From positions 124,001 to 188,000 of IMG/VR virus record IMGVR_UViG_3300009011_000001: DNA of 64,000 bases. The stretch is one strand, 5' to 3'. This stretch comes from a virus. Positions 13,471 through 60,521 of the stretch are shown piece by piece; position 1 is the stretch's first letter, and every line of letters starts with the position of its first letter. The notes under the pieces were generated by a model. That model ran no database searches. It was not told the DNA's origin and saw only the letters and a list, made by a program, of their open reading frames with translations. The translations under genes and the position numbers were made by a program.

Positions 13471-13504
13471 GCATAGAGGCAGGGCGTTTGCCCTGCCTCT
13501 ATGC
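13471..13504 (+). terminator. GC-rich hairpin with TATGCTG tail
   Basis: CATAGAGGCAGGG pairs with CCCTGCCTCTATG, followed by CTGTTTCATTTTCTTTT. Confidence 0.72.
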
Positions 13505-29958: not shown

Positions 29959-30855
29959 ATGAAGAAAATGGTCTACGCTGTACTGGCATTGATGGCGTTG
30001 TCTTTCAACGTCTTTGCTAACGAACCCAAAACACTCAACTTCTGCACCGGAGCGGCCGAAGGCTATTACAGCCAGATCGGTCAAGTTGTCGGCACTGAAA
30101 TCCAATCGAACTCCAAAGGTTTGGTTGTGGTCAAGTTCGTCAACACCAAAGGCTCCGTCGATTCCGCTACTCGTCTGAAAGCCGGCGAGTGCGATATCGC
30201 GATCCTGCAAAACGATGCGGTGACGTCTCGTCCGATGCCTACTGACATCTCCACCACCGATGCTCACCAGGAAGCGATCTTCTGGATCCACAGCAAGAAC
30301 AGCAAGGTCAAAGACTTTGATGATCTCTCTGACAGCGACTACAAGAACCTGGGCGTTGCCATCGTTGACGGCTCCGGCGCTGAAGTGACCCTGCGTAACT
30401 TCGGCAACATCGATAAAGACTTCAAAGACCTGAACATCGTCGGCTTCAAGAACTGGCGCTGGGCTGCCAAGGCTGCTGCTGAAGGCAAGGTCCGTAAAGG
30501 CGGTATCGACATCCCTATCGCTGGTCTGATCTACGTCGGTCGTCAAGGCAAGATCTCTACCGAAATTACCGGTGAGTTCAAAGAAGAGCTGCGCATCGGC
30601 GAGATCGATGTTAGTGCCTTCAAGAAAGTCAAAGACCTGAACGGCAACCCACTGTACACGACCTGTGAAGTTGTTCAGGCCAACGGCATCGAAACCTCCA
30701 CCACGCTGAAGCCGGACACCTACTGCCTGCGCGCTCAGTTCGTGTACAACAACGCATTCTTCGAAGGCATGGACGAAAACGACGCTGAGCTTCTTCAGAC
30801 CGTAGTCGACAAGGCCATCGTGCGTAACGTGCGTCAGCAACAAGCAGCGAAGTGA
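29959..30855 (+). CDS. TAXI-type periplasmic solute-binding protein
   Basis: 298 residues. A signal peptide is cleaved near residue 20 (FNVFA-NEP). The mature start 'TLNFCTGAAEGYYSQIGQVVG' and 'VNTKGSVDSATRLKAGECDIAILQNDA' match the TAXI family of TRAP-transporter receptors (TGs..G.YY.iG...; TgGSv.N...L..GeaD.a..Q.D). Bacterial homologues bind small acids such as glutamate or 2-oxoacids for membrane partners. No transporter genes are present here, so the phage protein may scavenge, sequester or sense a ligand, or have been recruited for another binding job. Four cysteines may form disulphides. Confidence 0.78.
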   Translation: MKKMVYAVLALMALSFNVFANEPKTLNFCTGAAEGYYSQIGQVVGTEIQSNSKGLVVVKFVNTKGSVDSATRLKAGECDIAILQNDAVTSRPMPTDISTTDAHQEAIFWIHSKNSKVKDFDDLSDSDYKNLGVAIVDGSGAEVTLRNFGNIDKDFKDLNIVGFKNWRWAAKAAAEGKVRKGGIDIPIAGLIYVGRQGKISTEITGEFKEELRIGEIDVSAFKKVKDLNGNPLYTTCEVVQANGIETSTTLKPDTYCLRAQFVYNNAFFEGMDENDAELLQTVVDKAIVRNVRQQQAAK

Positions 30856-31337: not shown

Positions 31338-31344
31338 GCAACAA

Positions 31345-31377
31345 CATAGAGCTGGGGGCGATGCCCCCAGCTCTATG
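31345..31377 (+). terminator. GC-rich hairpin with TATGC tail
   Basis: CATAGAGCTGGGGGC pairs with GCCCCCAGCTCTATG, followed by CTTTATTTTTT. Confidence 0.75.
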
Positions 31378-31406
31378 CTTTATTTTTTACAAAAGTGAGT
31401 TTGTTT

Positions 31407-33400: not shown

Positions 33401-33622
33401 ATGTCGCCTGAAGCTAAAGAAGCGGTTGAAGGTTTTCGTGCAACGGTAAAGCGAATCAGGGAATCTCTCCAGTCGTTGTTTGAGAAGATTCGCGACGGCA
33501 TGGACCACCGCGATCACAGCGTTTTGCACAAACACCGCAATGACGTCAACCGTAACGGCATGCCTGTAAACCGCCGGAAAGGCGTCGGTCACTATCGTCG
33601 ACCACAAGGAAAGAAGAAGTAA
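33401..33622 (+). CDS. Small very basic protein
   Basis: 73 residues behind AGGAGG. Histidine-, arginine- and lysine-rich C-terminal half (HRDHSVLHKHRNDVNRNG... RRPQGKKK). Likely binds nucleic acid by charge. Stop overlaps the next start. Confidence 0.55.
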   Translation: MSPEAKEAVEGFRATVKRIRESLQSLFEKIRDGMDHRDHSVLHKHRNDVNRNGMPVNRRKGVGHYRRPQGKKK

Positions 33623-34086
33623 TGAATATTTCCAACGGTCTTCCAGTCAGCCTGCAGGCAGAATTCGAAGATCCCGAACAGTGCAACACGATTCCGATTG
33701 TTGAACACGCTCGCTGGCTGAAAGGCCAAGACGCTGAACACGTCAACGGCTATGCGCACAAAACGCCGTACACCCGTGTCAATCTGGCCGGGGTGTTTCA
33801 ACACCTGTCACCGGTGGTGGAGTTGTTTGAAGAAGCGACCGAACAAGCTGTGCTGAAGGCTCTCTCGGCTCGTCTGCAGATTGATTTCGTCCAAGGCGAT
33901 GTACGGATCCACTTTACGCAAGACGGTATGCCAAAGCCCGGTGAGAGCTATGATGCTTACATCTTTGCTCTGCCTTATTCTGCCGTGTATCAGGGTTGCG
34001 CAACTCTGCGTATCTACAATCCTGGCAAATACATCCAGGCAGAGATCGTTCGTGATGAAACTGGGAAACTGCTTCCGAAGGCGTAA
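33622..34086 (+). CDS. Uncharacterised 154-residue protein
   Basis: Soluble, acidic, alpha/beta. It ends right at an inverted repeat (34082-34095) that begins the structured non-coding region. Confidence 0.56.
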   Translation: MNISNGLPVSLQAEFEDPEQCNTIPIVEHARWLKGQDAEHVNGYAHKTPYTRVNLAGVFQHLSPVVELFEEATEQAVLKALSARLQIDFVQGDVRIHFTQDGMPKPGESYDAYIFALPYSAVYQGCATLRIYNPGKYIQAEIVRDETGKLLPKA

Positions 34087-34089
34087 TTA

Positions 34090-34440
34090 ATTACGGGAAG
34101 TCGAACTCCTATACAAACAACCACTGCTGAAGGAACTGCAATGCGCGTAGCAGTCCTCGGGGCGTTAATGAGGATAACGTATCCCGATTGACTGGGCGAA
34201 GGACCAATGTCCGTGGCCACTAAAACTTAAAGCTTCAACCGAGTCGGGATAACCGCTCTTTGAATTGCACAAGCAAAAGCTTGTGTGAACTGCAGCGTGC
34301 GCATACACGCCGTAGCGCAACATCCGCCCCGACGCAAATTCCATTGAACAGGCGAGTTCTGGTTTATCGGTACCGATAAATTGCAGTTCCACACTGGAGG
34401 AAATGGACAGGGGCGGTATTTCTTTCTTTTTATGCTGTTC
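34090..34440 (+). ncRNA. Structured non-coding region, about 350 bases
   Basis: No plausible reading frame with a ribosome site. Many complementary segments are visible: 34132-34140 with 34382-34390 (9 bp, long range), 34180-34187 with 34244-34251 (8 bp), 34268-34274 with 34279-34285 (7 bp, AAAA loop), 34295-34299 with 34306-34310, the 18-base palindrome 34363-34380, and CCGCCCC 34324-34330 with GGGGCGG 34410-34416, followed by a T-rich tract and TATGCTG. This is the look of a folded RNA with its own terminator. It matches no RNA family I know (not tmRNA, RNase P or a known riboswitch). Confidence 0.55.
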
Positions 34441-34473: not shown

Positions 34474-35001
34474 ATGGATACCGCTGCTCTTAAAAAGCTC
34501 CCCATTCCTAAGCCAGGAAAGACCTCTCCAGAAACCTACGGGTTCCTGTTCGGGGTTATGAAGACCCTTGAAAACTCTCCTCATGATCACGACTTCAGCG
34601 TTCACGGGAAAACTGAAGTGGTGAACTTCAGGATCAACCGCAATCGCAGCCAGATGGGGATGTTGAGCTTTCGACCTACTCAGCCCGGCCCCGCATTGGA
34701 AAATCCTGTAACGGTGTCCGATGAGTTCATCGCAGGTTTCGGTAAACAGATCGACGACAAACGCGTGGAACTGTCCGATGGTTCCGAAAAGGCTTTCTCG
34801 ATCATCCTGGCCTGTCTGAAGGGTCGCATGATCGTCACTCGCACTACTTGTGATGTGGTCCAGATGTGGAGCGGGCGAGGGGTCAAGGTCAAGCTGAATG
34901 GCATTTTGATCGATGGCCAATCGACACCAGTCGGCTTCATCGATTTCGACTTTACTCTGGCTCCGCGGGTGCAACGCTGGAATTTTCCACGCAGGCTCTA
35001 G
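34474..35001 (+). CDS. Uncharacterised 175-residue protein
   Basis: It starts behind GCAAGGAAG. Basic, beta-rich in the C-terminal half. First gene after the structured region. Confidence 0.56.
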   Translation: MDTAALKKLPIPKPGKTSPETYGFLFGVMKTLENSPHDHDFSVHGKTEVVNFRINRNRSQMGMLSFRPTQPGPALENPVTVSDEFIAGFGKQIDDKRVELSDGSEKAFSIILACLKGRMIVTRTTCDVVQMWSGRGVKVKLNGILIDGQSTPVGFIDFDFTLAPRVQRWNFPRRL

Positions 35002-38579: not shown

Positions 38580-38667
<88 letters not shown>

Positions 38668-38751
38668 CGAATTATCGGCCGCGACTTTATAGTTGCTGGG
38701 AAACCTTATCCGAGTATAAACGGATCGGCCGGCCTTGCTTTAAAAGTTTGT

Positions 38752-38828
38752 TGGGGTATAGCTCAGTCCGGTAGAGCAGCGGGTTTTGATCCCGCTTGTC
38801 ATAGGTTCGAATCCTGTTGCCCCTGCCA
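38752..38828 (+). tRNA. tRNA-Gln (anticodon TTG)
   Basis: D arm GCTC...GAGC, anticodon arm GCGGG-TTTTGAT-CCCGC (TTG), T arm ATAGG-TTCGAAT-CCTGT, G discriminator, encoded CCA. The first pair is T-T, in keeping with the weak 1-72 pair of tRNA-Gln. Confidence 0.9.
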
Positions 38829-38833
38829 TGTTC

Positions 38834-38975
38834 GGAGAAGCGTTCGGTTACGGAGTGGTTGAACGTTGATATATCGGGTAACTACCGATTGGATACATGA
38901 GCTAGAGTGGAAGTCGCCTGCCATGGGGCCATGACTATTCATCCGCGAGTTCGAATCTCGCCTGTCCGCTTCTCC
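38834..38975 (+). ncRNA. tRNA-like element with outer 9-bp stem, not a normal tRNA
   Basis: GGAGAAGCG at the start pairs with CGCTTCTCC at the end. Inside lies a perfect T arm (GCGAG-TTCGAAT-CTCGC, 38945-38961), a D-arm-like stretch near 38842-38863 and several hairpins. At 142 bases, without a clear anticodon loop or encoded CCA, it fits no standard tRNA. A 77-base inner piece (38891-38967) could be a degraded tRNA. Possibly a tRNA-derived RNA. Confidence 0.45.
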
Positions 38976-38987
38976 TTACCTTGTAAT

Positions 38988-39063
38988 TCCGCGATAGCTC
39001 AGTTGGTAGAGCAAACGGCTGTTAACCGTTTGGTCCCTGGTTCGAGTCCAGGTCGTGGAGCCA
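38988..39063 (+). tRNA. tRNA-Asn (anticodon GTT)
   Basis: Acceptor TCCGCGA/TCGTGGA, D arm GCTC...GAGC, anticodon arm AACGG-CTGTTAA-CCGTT (GTT), T arm CCTGG-TTCGAGT-CCAGG, G discriminator, encoded CCA. Confidence 0.95.
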
Positions 39064-39067
39064 ATTT

Positions 39068-39180
39068 GCTGCGGTCCCTTTGAGGGGCAGATACCGTGGA
39101 TTGTCATGACAGCTTACACCGTCCGGCGGAGTCTTGACTAATAGAGTGATGGGTTAAAACCCTGAGCGATGCCGGAGACT
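39068..39180 (+). ncRNA. Hairpin-rich spacer in the tRNA cluster
   Basis: CTGC...CCCTTTGAGGG..GCAG, TGTCATGACA, and CCGGC (39123-39127) with GCCGG (39171-39175) enclosing a GGGT-TAAA-ACCC hairpin. No tRNA can be folded and no reading frame is present. A decayed tRNA or an unrecognised RNA. Confidence 0.35.
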
Positions 39181-39194
39181 ATTTCTTGCTTTAC

Positions 39195-39284
39195 GGTGAA
39201 TTGGTCGAGTGGCCTATGGCGGCGGCTTGCTAAGCCGTTGACCCTTAACCGGGTCCGAGAGTTCGAATCTCTCATTCACCTCCA
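39195..39284 (+). tRNA. tRNA-Ser (anticodon GCT)
   Basis: Acceptor GGTGAAT/ATTCACC, anticodon arm CGGC-TTGCTAA-GCCG (GCT), class-II variable arm, T arm GAGAG-TTCGAAT-CTCTC, encoded CCA. Confidence 0.93.
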
Positions 39285-39291
39285 GTTAGTC

Positions 39292-39378
39292 CCCTGGGTA
39301 GCTCAGTCGGTTAGAGCAGCTCTCTGAGGTCGCTCCTCAGGAAGAAGGTCGTGGGTTCAAGTCCCGCCCTCGGGGCCA
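39292..39378 (+). tRNA. tRNA-like gene with extended anticodon arm, identity unclear
   Basis: Acceptor CCCTGGG/CCTCGGG (one mismatch), D arm GCTC...GAGC, variable AGGTC, T arm GTGGG-TTCAAGT-CCCGC, encoded CCA. The anticodon arm is about 10 bases too long. CTGAG-GTCGCTC-CTCAG inside it would give loop bases CGC after T33, but a 6-bp stem with a 5-base loop is equally good. Either an unusual tRNA or a decayed one. Confidence 0.6.
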
Positions 39379-51000: not shown

Positions 51001-51633
51001 ATGAAATACCACAACCTGAAGAACAAGGCCGAAATGGATGCCCTCCCAAAAGGCACCCTGAAAGATTTCGACGTCATCATTCTTACCGATACTCGCGATG
51101 TCTACTCCATCCCGCACAAAGGCACTGAGCCTGTATTTGCGTTCAACATCAAGCCGCGCGATGTAGCGTTTCCTGTTGTTGAGCACGCGCCTGCGGCACA
51201 GCTGACCGTACCAGCCGTGGGCGATAAGCCCCTGATGCGAGTCCGGTTCCATTCGGACTTCTCGGACAGCCGTCCAGTTACGTGGCCGTTAAAACACCCT
51301 TACTGGTGTACCGGCAGCTACACCTACCATGATAAGAACGGTGATCCGGGCGACGGCTGCACTATCGTTGCTTATCTCGAATCCAAAGACGAGGTGTTGA
51401 AAGGCTGGCCAGAAGCTCGCGATATCGAAGTGTTTGAAGAAGACTTAGATTTCTACACCTTCACCGCACGCTTCGGCGTTAGCGAAATGGTGCTTTCGTA
51501 TTACGATTTGCCTAAGTTTAAGGCAAGTCATCCAGGTGAGCAGTTCAAGGAAGCGGTGGAGTCGTTCAAAGCCATCTATCCCGAATGCAGTACTGCTGCT
51601 GCGGAGTTCATTCCGGGCAGTCTCCGTAACTAG
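51001..51633 (+). CDS. Uncharacterised 210-residue protein
   Basis: ATG 51001 behind TTGGAGC. Beta-rich, with several H, W and D residues (FHSDFSDSRPVTWPLKHPYWC) that are not in a recognisable catalytic order. A single-gene unit. Confidence 0.58.
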   Translation: MKYHNLKNKAEMDALPKGTLKDFDVIILTDTRDVYSIPHKGTEPVFAFNIKPRDVAFPVVEHAPAAQLTVPAVGDKPLMRVRFHSDFSDSRPVTWPLKHPYWCTGSYTYHDKNGDPGDGCTIVAYLESKDEVLKGWPEARDIEVFEEDLDFYTFTARFGVSEMVLSYYDLPKFKASHPGEQFKEAVESFKAIYPECSTAAAEFIPGSLRN

Positions 51634-51644
51634 TTACTAAACAC

Positions 51645-54645: not shown

Positions 54646-55878
54646 TTACTTAGCCATGCTACTCAGTAGCGTGTGGATCGCATCAGCATTGCTGCGCATG
54701 CTGTTTGCAAAACTACCCAGAGCTTGGCAGTATTTCAGGTCAGCAGCTGCTTCTGCACGCAACTCAGCGATACGCGCACTGTCGGCGTCTTTGCCTTTTT
54801 CGCGGTTTATGTCACGAGCCATATCGGCCTGGGAACGAGCGGCCATCTGTTCGAGTGATTTACACTCATTGTACAGGGTCTTCGCTTCGGTGTGGGCCTG
54901 TTCGATCAACTTGTCCAACTCGTTAACGCCGGCAGCGTATTCGGTGGTGTAGTCGGCATCAGGGTACTTGGCCTTCCATTCCTTAAAGGCCTTGTTGAAT
55001 GGATCACCTTCCATGAAGGTGCCAACGTCTTTTGGCATTACGCCCTTACCGCTGGCGTCCTGTCCGGCGATGAGCTTACCGGCAACGCCGCCGTTCAGAG
55101 AAACGATGTATTCGCGAACCTTGGCAACGTCAAGACGGCCATTGGAAACCATCCAGCCTGGCACGCGGACAGAACGCTTCTTACCTTCTTCCTGCGGTGC
55201 TTCTTTCTTCGGCGCAGGTTTGGCAGGCTCTGCTGGCTTTTCAGCAGGTTTCTCTGCAGGCTTTGCCGCTGGAGCAGCAGCAGGCTTCGCAGGAGTGTTG
55301 GCCGGAGCAGCGGCAACGGGTTTTGGTTCGTTGGCAGCAGGTTTGGCGTGACCACCCACCTCGGTAATCTTGGCTTCTTTCAGCTTGCCGATATCGGCCT
55401 TGGCAGCGGCATGGCGCTCATCCAGCTTCTTCTCACCCAGCCCCAGTTTGGCGCCCCAGCGTTTGAACATGGCAACCAGTGCGTCGTAACGCTCCTTCAC
55501 CCATTTGATCAGAGCTTCAACCACGCCCTTCACTTTCTGACCAATCGACTTCTTGTCTTTCTCAGCTGCTTCAAAAGAAGGAGCCAAAACGGAGACAGGA
55601 ATGTGAGCACCAGAAACGTGCATGATCTGCGCCATTGCGAACTGATAGTTCTCCATCGACTCAGGGGTCAGTTCTTGGCCCTCGAAGCGCTGAGCCAAAG
55701 CTTCCAGCGACTGAGTCACCGCAATGGTGCGGCCCATGTCGTCGATGTGGGAGTTGACGAGTTCGAGATAATCGTCAGCATCGGCACTTGGATCCGGTTC
55801 GTATTCCACCGGTAGTTCTGGTTGAGCAACTTCTCCAGATTCCATTGCCAAGGAAAGCAGGGTTCTTTCGAGATTCAT
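54646..55878 (-). CDS. Inner-head-type virion protein with Ala/Pro/Lys linker
   Basis: 410 residues; ATG at 55878 behind AAGGAACG. The leader MNLERTLLSLAMESGE is almost the same as in the next gene and contains A-M-E13, an S/A-X-E-type cleavage site. 'VLAPSFEAAEKDKKSIGQKVKGVVEALIKWVKE' (about 98-130) is shared. A Pro/Ala/Lys-rich linker (about 180-235) follows, then a 'RVPGWMVSNGRLDVAKVREYIVSLNGGVAGKLIAGQDASGKGV' block and a helical end. By analogy with phiKZ-like phages I infer a protein packed inside the capsid and matured by proteolysis. Confidence 0.7.
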   Translation of the reverse strand: MNLERTLLSLAMESGEVAQPELPVEYEPDPSADADDYLELVNSHIDDMGRTIAVTQSLEALAQRFEGQELTPESMENYQFAMAQIMHVSGAHIPVSVLAPSFEAAEKDKKSIGQKVKGVVEALIKWVKERYDALVAMFKRWGAKLGLGEKKLDERHAAAKADIGKLKEAKITEVGGHAKPAANEPKPVAAAPANTPAKPAAAPAAKPAEKPAEKPAEPAKPAPKKEAPQEEGKKRSVRVPGWMVSNGRLDVAKVREYIVSLNGGVAGKLIAGQDASGKGVMPKDVGTFMEGDPFNKAFKEWKAKYPDADYTTEYAAGVNELDKLIEQAHTEAKTLYNECKSLEQMAARSQADMARDINREKGKDADSARIAELRAEAAADLKYCQALGSFANSMRSNADAIHTLLSSMAK

Positions 55879-55893
55879 CTTTCGTTCCTTTTC

Positions 55894-57045
55894 TTACGCA
55901 GCCTTGAGTTTAAAGAGAGCACCAAGGATGCCGTGTTGTTCACAGATCCAAGCGTGGCATTTGGTTTCGAGTTTGGAGATCTCTGCATCGATGCGCATGG
56001 CTGCTACAAAAGCATTGCGATACGCAGCAACCTTCTTGTGATCTTTCGATCCAGCCACGTTGTTCTCAAGCTTACGCCGAGCTGTAGACATGGCTTCTTG
56101 TCGAGCCACAGACCACTTGTTCAGAGTCTTGAGCGTACGTGCCAAGAAGGCACTGACCAGCTGAACACGAGACAACTCCATCGTGTAATCGCTGACCTTA
56201 TTCTTATCCTTGATGGCTTCTTCAAGGCCTTTACGGAAAGCACTGTCGTAACGATCCTCTTTGAGGAAGTCGAACAGATACTTGGCAGACTCTTCAGGAT
56301 CTGCTTGATCAACTTTCTCGATCAGGTCAACGCCCTTGCTATCCTTGCCGTTCAGAAGATGGCCAACTTCGCCCTTCAGGTTGAAGAGACTATCGACCAG
56401 ACGAATGAACACATCGGCGTTGAAAGCGCCTTCATGAATCATCCAGGCAGGAAGAGGATTGCGGTGGAACTGACCCTGCTTATCACCAACGCGAACCGTC
56501 AGAGTGGCGACGTTACCGCTCAGCTCATAACGCTTTTCGGTACTTGGCTCATCGACGGCGACAGCCTTGGCAATGAGTTCCGCCTCAGCTTCCAACTTGT
56601 CAGTCTTGCCTTTTCTGAAGAGGTTGACCTTCTTGAAGAAAGCAACCAGCGAATCCCACTTTTCTTTGATCCATTTAAGGATCGAGGCAACCACGCTCTT
56701 GGCCTTTTGGCCAATCGATTCCTTGTCCTTCTCGGCAGCTTCAAACGAAGGCGCCAGAGTCAGTACGGGGATGTGGACACCGCTGACTGCCAACATGGTT
56801 GACAGAGTCGCGTGATACTGCTCCATGGAAGCCTGCGTCACTTCCGCACCCTGTACTTGTTCAGCCAAGGATTCGAATGACTGCACAAATGCGTAGGCGC
56901 GTTCAATCTCGCCAATGCGGGCTTCCGTTGCGTAGACCAGCTCTTCAGACAGCACTTCGAACAAAGGCAAGTCTTCGTAAGTTGGTTCAACGGTGACTGC
57001 GCCACTTTCCATTGCCACAGACAGCAACGTTCTGCTCAAATTCAT
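55894..57045 (-). CDS. Inner-head-type virion protein, paralogue of the 54646 gene
   Basis: 383 residues; ATG at 57045 behind AAGGATC. MNLSRTLLSVAMESGA leader with A-M-E13 cleavage-type site; 'LAPSFEAAEKDKESIGQKAKSVVASILKWIKEKWDSLVAFFKK' nearly repeats the neighbour. 'NPLPAWMIHEGAFNADVFIRLVDSLFNLKGEVGHLLNGKDSKGV' matches the neighbour's second conserved block. It lacks the Pro/Ala linker. Together with the 1-560 gene it forms a virion protein family. Confidence 0.7.
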   Translation of the reverse strand: MNLSRTLLSVAMESGAVTVEPTYEDLPLFEVLSEELVYATEARIGEIERAYAFVQSFESLAEQVQGAEVTQASMEQYHATLSTMLAVSGVHIPVLTLAPSFEAAEKDKESIGQKAKSVVASILKWIKEKWDSLVAFFKKVNLFRKGKTDKLEAEAELIAKAVAVDEPSTEKRYELSGNVATLTVRVGDKQGQFHRNPLPAWMIHEGAFNADVFIRLVDSLFNLKGEVGHLLNGKDSKGVDLIEKVDQADPEESAKYLFDFLKEDRYDSAFRKGLEEAIKDKNKVSDYTMELSRVQLVSAFLARTLKTLNKWSVARQEAMSTARRKLENNVAGSKDHKKVAAYRNAFVAAMRIDAEISKLETKCHAWICEQHGILGALFKLKAA

Positions 57046-57095: not shown

Positions 57096-60000
57096 TTACT
57101 TGACGCTGCGGTCCATCCAGTGCAGCAGTGCGATGATGATGTCACTGTACCAACGGTTGTAGTACGGGAAGCCGTATTCCAGCTCCTCAGAAACACGCTG
57201 ATGGTACCAGTGTTCGGCGTAGTCCATGTAGAGCGGCTCATCGAAGTCTTGCAGAAGACTCCACACATCCTCGGCTTCGAAATCGAGCCATCCGAAGTGA
57301 AGCGCGCCTTTCTGCCCTTTGATGTTCTGGAAGCACTGATCGATGATTGCAACAGCCTTACCAATCTGCTCAGCGTTCAATGCCGGGATCTTGGTAACGC
57401 CTTCGACTTTGTGTTCCTTGCCTGGCCGCACTTCCATGCCGTAAGCGTTGTTCGACTTCACGATGGCAGGATTCCAACCGCCCATGAAGACGTACTTCTT
57501 GCCGATAGCTTGCTGAGCCGGATGGTGCTTGCCAATCAGATCAAACTCTTTATTGGCATCGGCACAAAGCTTCTCGACTTCGTCATGGTTCCCGGCATGG
57601 ATAGCCTTGGTCAAAGGACCTTCGTACTTCGTGAAAGTCGCTTGGACTTTATCGTCCGTCTGCTTCAGCAGAGCGCTGTAACTGCCCGCTTGCTGAATGA
57701 AACCGGCGATGCCTTTTTCGATATCGCTGAAAGCAGTCGAGGCGTTGAACTTACCTTCGTAAGACAAAGGTTGAACAATGCCTGCAGCAGCCACTTCCGT
57801 GTTAAACTGCTGTTTCTTCACCCAGGTCGGGTTACCGAAGAACTGTTTCAGATACTCATCCACTTTCTTCTGTTCAGCGATCGGATAATCGTCTCGCGGA
57901 ATAGCTTCTTTGTGGATGTCTTTCTGACTTGGTCCCTGGAACCACTTCTTGATGTCGGTAATGATATCGCCCAGACTCTCGAATGACTCGCCGGCTACCT
58001 GTTTGATGTTGATCGTGTAGCCACGCAATGCAGCATGCACATCAACGGTTTCACAACGCAGGATGTTGTCGTGGATCGTACCTTGAGTCTTGTACTCACC
58101 TTTCAGGCCGTTAACAGGATTGAAGTTCTCAACCCAGCCATCTTCGGCTTCAGGTCGCAGCGTGTAGATGTAGACCGACAGCTTTTCGATATCAGCTTTG
58201 GTGATGGTTTGGTCGCACACCTCGATATCCAGACGGCGGGTTTTCGCATCGTACTTGTAGCGCGATAGATCCCACTTCTTCTCGATTGCCGAGCTAATGC
58301 CCAGCATGATCGCTTCGTCTTTCTTATCGGCAGCATACAGCCAGGTGTTGTCTTCGGTCTTATCCCACTTAACCAGAACACCGCTGTGTTTAAAGCCTGG
58401 CTTAAGTTCGTTCTGCTTGTAGGCAGACGAGTGGAACAGATACGGAGGCAGGTTGGTCATTGGCTCAACAAACTCCTGCTTCACGCTTACCGGAGCAGCA
58501 GGACCACCCAACCACTGATTGTCGAACGACTCTTCTGCGTACTCGATCAGCTCGTTGAGCAACAGGTTCTTGGATTCCAGCTGCATGCTGTCCAAGTCCA
58601 CGTTAGCCACGCCGAGAATCGATGCAGTCATTTCAGCCGACCACTGCATGATGTCGTTGCTGCGGGTGGAGATGTTTGGCTTGTCGCCGGTGTCGAGCAA
58701 CAGATCGACCACGTCCACTGCAGTGTCCTGACCAAGGCGAGCAGCACGGGCGATGGTCTGAGTACGGATAGCGTCACGGAACGGCTGGTTGATCATGAGG
58801 ATGCGACTGGCCACTGTCAAAGGCACCGCCGTCGACAGAGACGGGTAGGTAGCCAGCAACGGGTTGATGTCGTCATTCTCGTAGAAGTCTTTGACGATCT
58901 TCGAAAGGTCCTTGTTGGTAGCGCCATAGACGCGAGCCGTTTGGTAACCCTTCTGATCGATCAAAGAAGCCGCACGTTCCAGCACCTCAACGAAGCTGGT
59001 GAAGATCAGGGTCTTCTTAACGGCACCGTCAATCAGCATGGAGAAGTCGATGTTCTCAACCATCTCCAAGTGGCACTTCGAACGAGAGCCGCCGAGGATA
59101 GTGCCAAGGCATTCACCCATGATCGTCAGGTTGACGTACTTGACCACAGATTTGGCTTTACGGAAATCTTCCTTCATTGTGTTTGGCAATGTTGGAATAA
59201 TGACCTTACGCTCAAAGCTGTTTGCAAGCTGTGCTTCGGCCTTCATGAGCTTTGGGTCAAACCCTTTGCTGATCAAAGCCACAGCAGCCTTATAGGCGGC
59301 GTAGTCAGCCTTGTTGAAGTGAGCATGCTGTTCAAAGTACGTCAGCGCACGTTCGTAGTCAGCCTTGAACTCAGCCTTGTGTTTCTCGTAGAACGCTTCG
59401 CGCTCCATGATGAACTTGCGCATCTTCTCGCCGATAGCTTCGAGCGTGTACTCGTGGGCATTCGGCATTTTAACCAGAACGGTCTGAGTGTGGATTGGGA
59501 TGTCCACTACGTCTTGTTTAGGGACGTGATACTTCAGGTGGCCGATACGGTTACGCAGGATATCGTTCGCACGTTTGGCGTCACGACCGTAGATCTTACG
59601 GAAGCGTTCTTCGGCCTCGTCGTTGAACATTGGGTCGATGCATTTAAGGAACGGAATGCACTCAACGCCAAGCGCTTGAATCGGAGTACCCGATGCCCAG
59701 AGATTCATCATCATCTGCGGCATGCCAGCCAGGTCAATAAAGGCCTGAGTACGGTCAGAAGCAATGCGGTTGAAGTTGTGCGATTCGTCCAGGCCCAAGT
59801 AAGAGCCTTCGAAATCACGAGGGTGCGCTTTAACGAAGTCCAGCATTTGTTGCAGCTGTTCGTAATGCACGACGTAGTAGTACGCATCGGTGGTCAGAGG
59901 CTTGCCATCGGTGGAAACCCAGTACGGTTTCTTCATGAGCATGATGTGCGCAATGGTATCTTGCCACACGCGCTCAGCCGAGTTCTTCGGTACGATGACG

Positions 60001-60521
60001 ATGCATTTCTTCGCACCCAAACAGTGGGCGAGGATCAGCTGAGTAACGGTCTTGCCTGTACCGGCACCGGCATCGAGCATGTAGCCACGCAGACGATAAG
60101 CAGGAACCAACTTACCGACGTGGCGCACAAACTCACGCTGGAAAGGCTTGAGCGGGAACGGAACAAGGTGGTCAAGATCCTTCTCGTTGGTGATGGACTT
60201 GACTTCACGTTCTACGTCACCAACCCAGGTCTTTTCCTTGAGTTCGTGAATGATCTTTGCAAGCACACGACGGGAACTGCGGGTCTGTGGATCATCAAGC
60301 AGTTTCTCGCAAATGTACTTGAAGTCCAATGCGAAGAAGTGAAGGAACCGAAGCTTACCGCTCTGGATAACCGAGAACATCTGGTTACCGACCTGATTGC
60401 TACCCCAGATACGATACATGTCCTTCAACAGGATGAATGTCTCAATACCCTCCACGGTGATGTACTTGGGGGTGGAGGAAACGTCCACAATCCCAAGCGT
60501 CTTTTTAATAGATGAAAACAT
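57096..60521 (-). CDS. SNF2-like (SF2) helicase with a large C-terminal domain
   Basis: 1141 residues; ATG at 60521 behind AGGAG. Helicase motifs: Q-like 'LKPFQREFV', Walker A DAGAGTGKT (150-158), DESH (245-248), ASGTP (276-280), 'LIFTSF' (about 505) and QTIARAARLGQ (588-598), the SNF2-type order. Residues from about 650 carry no helicase motif. They include 'GESFESLGDIITDIKKWFQGPSQ', resembling the amphipathic block of the inner-head proteins, and an 'NPTWVKKQ' stretch. Its place in the inner-head gene block suggests a virion-associated helicase used at genome entry or packaging. The helicase call is firm; the virion role is inference. Confidence 0.8.
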   Translation of the reverse strand: MFSSIKKTLGIVDVSSTPKYITVEGIETFILLKDMYRIWGSNQVGNQMFSVIQSGKLRFLHFFALDFKYICEKLLDDPQTRSSRRVLAKIIHELKEKTWVGDVEREVKSITNEKDLDHLVPFPLKPFQREFVRHVGKLVPAYRLRGYMLDAGAGTGKTVTQLILAHCLGAKKCIVIVPKNSAERVWQDTIAHIMLMKKPYWVSTDGKPLTTDAYYYVVHYEQLQQMLDFVKAHPRDFEGSYLGLDESHNFNRIASDRTQAFIDLAGMPQMMMNLWASGTPIQALGVECIPFLKCIDPMFNDEAEERFRKIYGRDAKRANDILRNRIGHLKYHVPKQDVVDIPIHTQTVLVKMPNAHEYTLEAIGEKMRKFIMEREAFYEKHKAEFKADYERALTYFEQHAHFNKADYAAYKAAVALISKGFDPKLMKAEAQLANSFERKVIIPTLPNTMKEDFRKAKSVVKYVNLTIMGECLGTILGGSRSKCHLEMVENIDFSMLIDGAVKKTLIFTSFVEVLERAASLIDQKGYQTARVYGATNKDLSKIVKDFYENDDINPLLATYPSLSTAVPLTVASRILMINQPFRDAIRTQTIARAARLGQDTAVDVVDLLLDTGDKPNISTRSNDIMQWSAEMTASILGVANVDLDSMQLESKNLLLNELIEYAEESFDNQWLGGPAAPVSVKQEFVEPMTNLPPYLFHSSAYKQNELKPGFKHSGVLVKWDKTEDNTWLYAADKKDEAIMLGISSAIEKKWDLSRYKYDAKTRRLDIEVCDQTITKADIEKLSVYIYTLRPEAEDGWVENFNPVNGLKGEYKTQGTIHDNILRCETVDVHAALRGYTINIKQVAGESFESLGDIITDIKKWFQGPSQKDIHKEAIPRDDYPIAEQKKVDEYLKQFFGNPTWVKKQQFNTEVAAAGIVQPLSYEGKFNASTAFSDIEKGIAGFIQQAGSYSALLKQTDDKVQATFTKYEGPLTKAIHAGNHDEVEKLCADANKEFDLIGKHHPAQQAIGKKYVFMGGWNPAIVKSNNAYGMEVRPGKEHKVEGVTKIPALNAEQIGKAVAIIDQCFQNIKGQKGALHFGWLDFEAEDVWSLLQDFDEPLYMDYAEHWYHQRVSEELEYGFPYYNRWYSDIIIALLHWMDRSVK

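Follow-up and report, generated by a model that had tools for sequence, protein, structure and literature searches.

Evidence for a conserved structured RNA in phiKZ-like jumbo phages

The DNA analysed here, the window, comprises 64,000 nucleotides (bases 124001-188000) of the 248,574-base virus record IMGVR_UViG_3300009011_000001 (G000). It encodes a SNF2/DEAD-like helicase (57096-60521) that is closest to proteins of phiKZ-like jumbo phages, at about 34-42% identity, and its relatives include those of Burkholderia phage FLC9, Klebsiella phage Eowyn and Erwinia phage RAY. Two proteins encoded at 54646-57045 have the N-terminus MNL(E/S)RTLLS(L/V)AMESG, a start typical of phiKZ-like virion proteins. 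The region studied sits between two genes of the same strand, 33622-34086 and 34474-35001, and a tRNA cluster (38580-39375) follows 4-5 kb 3' of it. The fifth tRNA of this cluster (39292-39375) was missed by ARAGORN and matched Rfam with 38.7 bits. Further upstream, the gene at 29959-30855 carries an NMT1-like domain of the periplasmic-binding type and shows 47-62% identity across four related phages. Two plus-strand genes are separated by a very strong, perfect terminator-like hairpin (31340-31390, AGCTGGGGGCGATGCCCCCAGCT) with CTATGC and a T tract on its 3' side.

A preliminary description of positions 34090-34440 had proposed a folded RNA outside the known families, and our results support this proposal. 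With Rfam 15 at gathering thresholds nothing in the window matched except tRNAs, and even at E = 10 zero families matched this RNA; a search with the homologous RNAs described below gave nothing relevant either. This test covers GOLLD, ROOL, group I and II introns, riboswitches, tmRNA, RNase P and ribozymes. Neither of two further ideas, a core of a group I intron and a motif resembling the hammerhead (CTGATGA), finds support in Rfam. The codon bias of the genome, present in both flanking genes, is absent from all six frames between 34080 and 34440, each of which scores negative, and no conserved frame with such bias runs through the body of the RNA. The earlier statement that the region has no reading frames is correct for codon-biased frames, but it overlooked a frame of 16 codons with a Shine-Dalgarno sequence (34141-34191), to which we return.

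In the window sequence by itself, the 263-nt core (34130-34392) reaches -100 kcal/mol against -75.6 +/- 4.9 in shuffles (z -5.0; 0 of 200 shuffles as good), whereas the entire 351-nt stretch has a z of only -2.6. A few other stretches of the window, and occasionally background windows of the genome, reach a value comparable to that of the core. The minus strand folds about equally well, and folding alone does not distinguish the strands. Since the homologous RNAs range from z +0.8 to -4.2 and are as a rule no better than shuffles, single-sequence stability counts as weak evidence here.

The proteins of the two flanking genes found no relatives in IMG/VR or INPHARED in the first searches. Related phages were therefore reached via the helicase, whose alignment led to 79 loci fetched from IMG/VR. 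A model built from the window only (R1) gave weak matches, one of them in G009 (IMGVR_UViG_3300046665_000434). Inspection by eye revealed that G009 and the window share the blocks GGGATAACCG, CCGCCCCGANGNAAATTCCA and GACAGGGGCGG in the same order. Searches with such blocks and then with profile HMMs led to G003 (3300048924_000191), G008 (3300041411_000129), G013 (3300006051_000001), G002 (3300023083_000001) and G007 (3300026430_000073), and a pattern for the P2 stem added L154 (3300038441_000923) and L157 (3300042136_000012). The homologous RNA is thus present in eight related jumbo-phage contigs, or nine phages with the window, and most of these loci are recognisably syntenic. Homologs of the window gene at 29959 lie near the RNA in G007, G008, G009 and G013. 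A homolog of gene 35012, which in the window stands one gene further on, directly follows the RNA in G008 and G013, and a homolog of gene 36458 is located 3' of it in G009. The first downstream gene differs between G000, G002, G007, G008/G013 and G009; it lies at 34474 in the window, 1728 in L101, 17266 in L109 and 9126 in L132, and it was also compared in L115 and L121.

A search of the phage's own genome for a second copy returned none, so that the RNA is single-copy there. About 70 other phiKZ-like records, among them six isolates, yielded no detectable homolog, and neither did G011 and G012, whose helicases are 58% identical. The weak matches in other phiKZ-like records that were checked proved to be coding (W06) or just the box TTTATGCCGC. 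A bipartite pattern scan of 13 loci matched G009 alone. Two contigs of bacterial and archaeal genomes (L158, L159) and one viral contig (L156) failed to match the model. A search of the isolate collection yielded no member; all members are metagenomic contigs.

The conserved parts of the RNA, all on the plus strand, are the hairpin P0/P1, the segments P2, P3, P4 and P5, a terminal helix PT, a T-rich tract and the box TTTATGCYG. P1 (34163-34167/34175-34179) has five base pairs and the 7-nt loop ATGAGGA, and stands on a variable stem, P0 (34157-34161/34183-34187). Its arms read CGTTA/TAACG in the window and CAGGG/CCCTG, CAGGT/ACCTG, CACGC/GCATG or CCGAG/CTCGG elsewhere. Six members have P2 as a stem interrupted by internal loops (GACT..AGTC, ACRC..GYGT), while the window, G002 and G009 have something else in its place; the corresponding region of the window gave no match to the stem of the main group. 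In P3 (GAG-T-CGG-GATAA-CCG-CTC, 34241-34258) the inner part CGG GATRA CCG is invariant in all nine sequences, and the outer pairs covary (GAG/CTC, GAT/GTC, GGT/GCC). P4 (CACAAGC-AAAA-GCTTGTG, 34268-34285) varies in sequence and keeps its pairing: the family contains six distinct arm pairs, 35 of 36 pairs are standard and every one of the six columns shows two-sided change. P5 (34290-34293/34312-34315 and 34295-34299/34306-34310) likewise changes in sequence while staying paired; in the homologs it has a base of the CTG/CAG type and an inner hairpin that varies, and its covariation support is weaker.

PT pairs CCGCCCC (34324-34330) with GGGGCGG (34410-34416) and encloses a variable domain of 79 nt in the window and 68-108 nt across the family. 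Its arms also occur as CCACCCC/GGGGTGG, CCCCTATA/TATAGGGG, CACCTCCTA/TAGGAGGTG and CACCTCCGG/CCGGAGGTG. The terminal hairpin with T tract of the preliminary description is real as a terminal element, but its conserved form is this long-range helix and not a local hairpin.

An independent test used a covariance model (R2) built from G003, G008, G013 and G007 alone, without the window. R2 matches the window at 34156-34438, end to end over model positions 1-367, with 24.2 bits; the E value was 8e-6 in 382 kb and 3.4e-6 in another run, the calibration being rough, as it is for the match to G002 (E 2.5e-10). R2 does not reach G009, which we include because of its shared blocks, promoter-like element, short frame and synteny. 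For the covariation check proposed originally, eight sequences were aligned with the model: two-sided changes affect 25 of the 45 pairs (8.7 +/- 2.0 after shuffling), 90.8% of the cells pair (78.1% shuffled) and the covariation score is 0.299 (0.114 +/- 0.015 shuffled); 0 of 500 shuffles reach any of the three values. Controls with slid partners collapse to 32-41% paired. As this alignment had been fitted to the structure, the test was repeated on plain MAFFT alignments of P0-P1 and P3-P4 with nine sequences, and again none of 500 shuffles equals the observed paired fraction or covariation score; misalignment of the window in parts of these alignments lowers the values obtained. With hand-chosen arms, the actual pairing is the best among all permutations in P0, P1 and P4. 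All these controls treat the sequences as independent of one another. Eight related phages preserve the paired shape at the corresponding genome position, and so we regard the family as real, and we are highly confident that a conserved structured RNA lies at this locus.

This conserved fold is not the one drawn originally, which relied on other base pairs. The helix then taken to close the structure, I1 (34132-34142/34380-34390; 11 bp with arms 237 nt apart), and a second one, I4 (34157-34164/34325-34332; 8 bp), are present in the window and dominate its single-sequence ensemble (base-pair probabilities 0.88 and 0.81), but the same pairing search in the homologs revealed a counterpart of neither and mostly chance-level pairing. 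Both are private to this phage. Likewise, the reported 18-base palindrome TTTATCGGTACCGATAAA exists (34363-34380) without a counterpart in the homologs. I1 and I4 compete with P0/P1 and PT, and the conserved fold lies just 2 kcal/mol above the fold containing them. The additional stability of this member is probably due in large part to I1 and I4, which may be either chance or a phage-specific switch.

Both ends of the RNA are marked by conserved elements. Upstream, at 34083-34114 of the plus strand, we find GTAAN4TTAC-N15-TATAC (GTAATTAATTAC at 34083-34094 and TATAC at 34110-34114). In the other seven loci aligned the element reads GTAAN4TTAC (GTAGN4TTAC in G002), then, after a spacing of 15-16 nt, TATGY in place of the TATAC of the window. 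We take it as a putative promoter. A scan of this genome for TTAC...TATG gave no other non-coding match; a role as general promoter of the phage is unsupported, the element being nearly unique to this locus. The palindrome GTAAnTAnTTAC upstream of the RNA has two further copies, at 51626-51637 and at genome position 77912, one of which adjoins a terminator-like hairpin.

Downstream, the T-rich tract and box (TTTATGCTG, 34417-34437) form the probable 3' end. In the 248,574-base genome T[CT]TATGC[CT]G is found at 28 sites, and at 21 of these it comes immediately after a 40-nt stretch with a folding energy of -11 kcal/mol or lower, as against 14% of random positions; PT with the box therefore looks like a terminator of this phage. 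TATGCYG is kept in all homologs save G009. Copies in the window are located, for example, at 13498, 19672, 34429, 39886, 50974 and 61636. The motif closes strong hairpins on their 3' side at many gene ends, and the hairpin often itself contains CATAGA..TCTATG.

The short frame at the 5' end (MRVAVLGALMRITYPD, 34130-34191, plus strand) comprises AAGGA at 34130-34134, an ATG at 34141 and a TGA at 34189-34191. Each of the nine loci has, behind an AAGG, a frame that reads into P0/P1 in one common phase and has its stop within the RNA, so the transcript might not be purely non-coding and the frame is possibly translated. Its length is 16 codons in the window and 86-113 codons in the other eight. 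The small proteins that end in the RNA form four groups that lack overall similarity; within the group of G007, L157 and L154 they are 74-80% identical. A scan of those of G009 and G007 against Pfam and PHROG matched nothing. Genes for small proteins were located just 5' of the RNA at 1170-1433 in L101, 16677-16937 in L109, 8528-8791 in L132 and about 9760-10058 in L115. The P2 sequence GACTCCCTGACRCC is identical in G003 and G013, where it serves as codons, and in G007, where it bears the stop.

We consider it somewhat probable that the locus encodes a new family of structured phage RNAs, each a separate transcript of about 280-380 nt that acts in trans. Transcription would start near 34120-34125 from the promoter-like element, and PT with the T-rich tract and box would terminate it near 34437. 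The RNA would fold as a row of hairpins, P0/P1, P3, P4 and P5, followed by the PT domain, and would be stable and act in trans during infection, most likely as an RNA-protein particle. This explanation is favoured because of the covariation, seen on the model alignment and on plain MAFFT sub-regions, because R2, built without the window, matches it end to end, and because of the fixed promoter-like spacing, the box statistics and the non-coding body. As the following gene differs between phages, the RNA is not tied to a single downstream gene, and this speaks for an RNA with a role of its own. The explanation is weakened by the short frame in nine of nine loci, the unremarkable folding of the homologs, the purely metagenomic membership and the unmatched P2 of the window.

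The presence of the short frame in all nine loci is the main reason for keeping two further readings. According to the first, which we regard as unlikely, the region is a cis-acting leader, either an attenuator or riboswitch-like, in which signal-dependent read-through would control the downstream genes. PT and the T-rich tract would be the terminator, an alternative pairing such as I4 in the window (TCGGGGCG/CGCCCCGA) would block PT, and ribosomes translating 34141-34191 would promote termination by melting P0/P1, I1 and I4. It fits this reading that I4 and PT use the same CGCCCC in folds only 2 kcal/mol apart, that the frame covers segments pairing in the alternative fold and that the terminator-like end directly precedes the gene at 34474. 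However, conserved, mutually exclusive terminator and anti-terminator pairings were not found: the best matches to the PT arm in the other eight members are 4-7 bp long and lie in unrelated places. A consistent class of downstream genes is missing as well, and PT begins about 130 nt past the stop of the short frame, its 3' arm about 220 nt past.

In the second, equally unlikely reading the transcript has a dual function: it is the mRNA of a small protein, the short frame being a translated gene whose tail overlaps P0/P1, and the structured RNA forms its 3' portion. The position and phase of AAGG and frame in all nine loci would be explained in this way, the similarity within the G007 group is consistent with it, and an abundant 100-nt RNA of phiKZ is assumed to derive from a 3' UTR (PMC8545117). 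Against it stand the conservation of the RNA alongside proteins of four dissimilar groups, of which two examples match neither Pfam nor PHROG, the indifference of P2 to its coding status and the mere 16 codons in the window. A combination is conceivable, with rather low probability, in which a new class of RNA machine of giant phages, with its own promoter and a phage-type terminator, has its folding or release controlled by translation of the frame whose tail forms the 5' hairpin. Intergenic DNA that is decaying or complementary merely by chance would agree with the private long-range helices and palindrome and with the modest z-scores of the homologs, but it is very unlikely because covariation far exceeds shuffled and slid controls and because the window is matched by a model derived from other phages.

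As far as Rfam 15 and the literature searched show, the family is new, while its kind, the large structured phage RNA, is already known from GOLLD and ROOL. GOLLD is a large RNA of phages and prophages, of unknown function and often near tRNA genes, and the same applies to ROOL, which is often found near tRNA islands (PMC12286853). The present RNA is likewise phage-encoded and has tRNA genes 4-5 kb downstream. It differs in lacking an Rfam match at E 10 and in size: GOLLD often exceeds 800 nt, and the ROOL example studied is about 660 nt long and contains several pseudoknots, whereas here the distance from promoter-like element to box is about 320 nt and the model has 367 positions, below the 600-800 nt or more of these families. 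A homo-oligomeric RNA cage is a further mark of GOLLD and ROOL. In phiKZ itself two candidate non-coding RNAs were described, in the 3' UTR of PHIKZ298 (about 100 nt) and the 5' UTR of p40 (about 180 nt), which also adjoin terminator-like stem-loops (PMC8545117). As described there, they are much shorter and have two stem-loops each, whereas the present RNA has a longer multi-helix fold conserved in nine phages. Leader attenuators and riboswitches with intrinsic terminators share with our RNA a folded region, a terminator-like helix and a T tract before a gene, but differ in the two points given above, variable downstream genes and no conserved anti-terminator pairing found.

Structured non-coding RNAs known from phiKZ-like giant phages are few, and the literature we found describes only the two short phiKZ candidates (PMC8545117). 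From the alignment and model one can derive concrete probes and helix mutations and search for additional members. The TTTATGCYG box beside hairpins may define a terminator signature of this phage group. The persistence of a multi-helix RNA in nine phages amid changing neighbouring genes argues for a function on which selection acts during infection.
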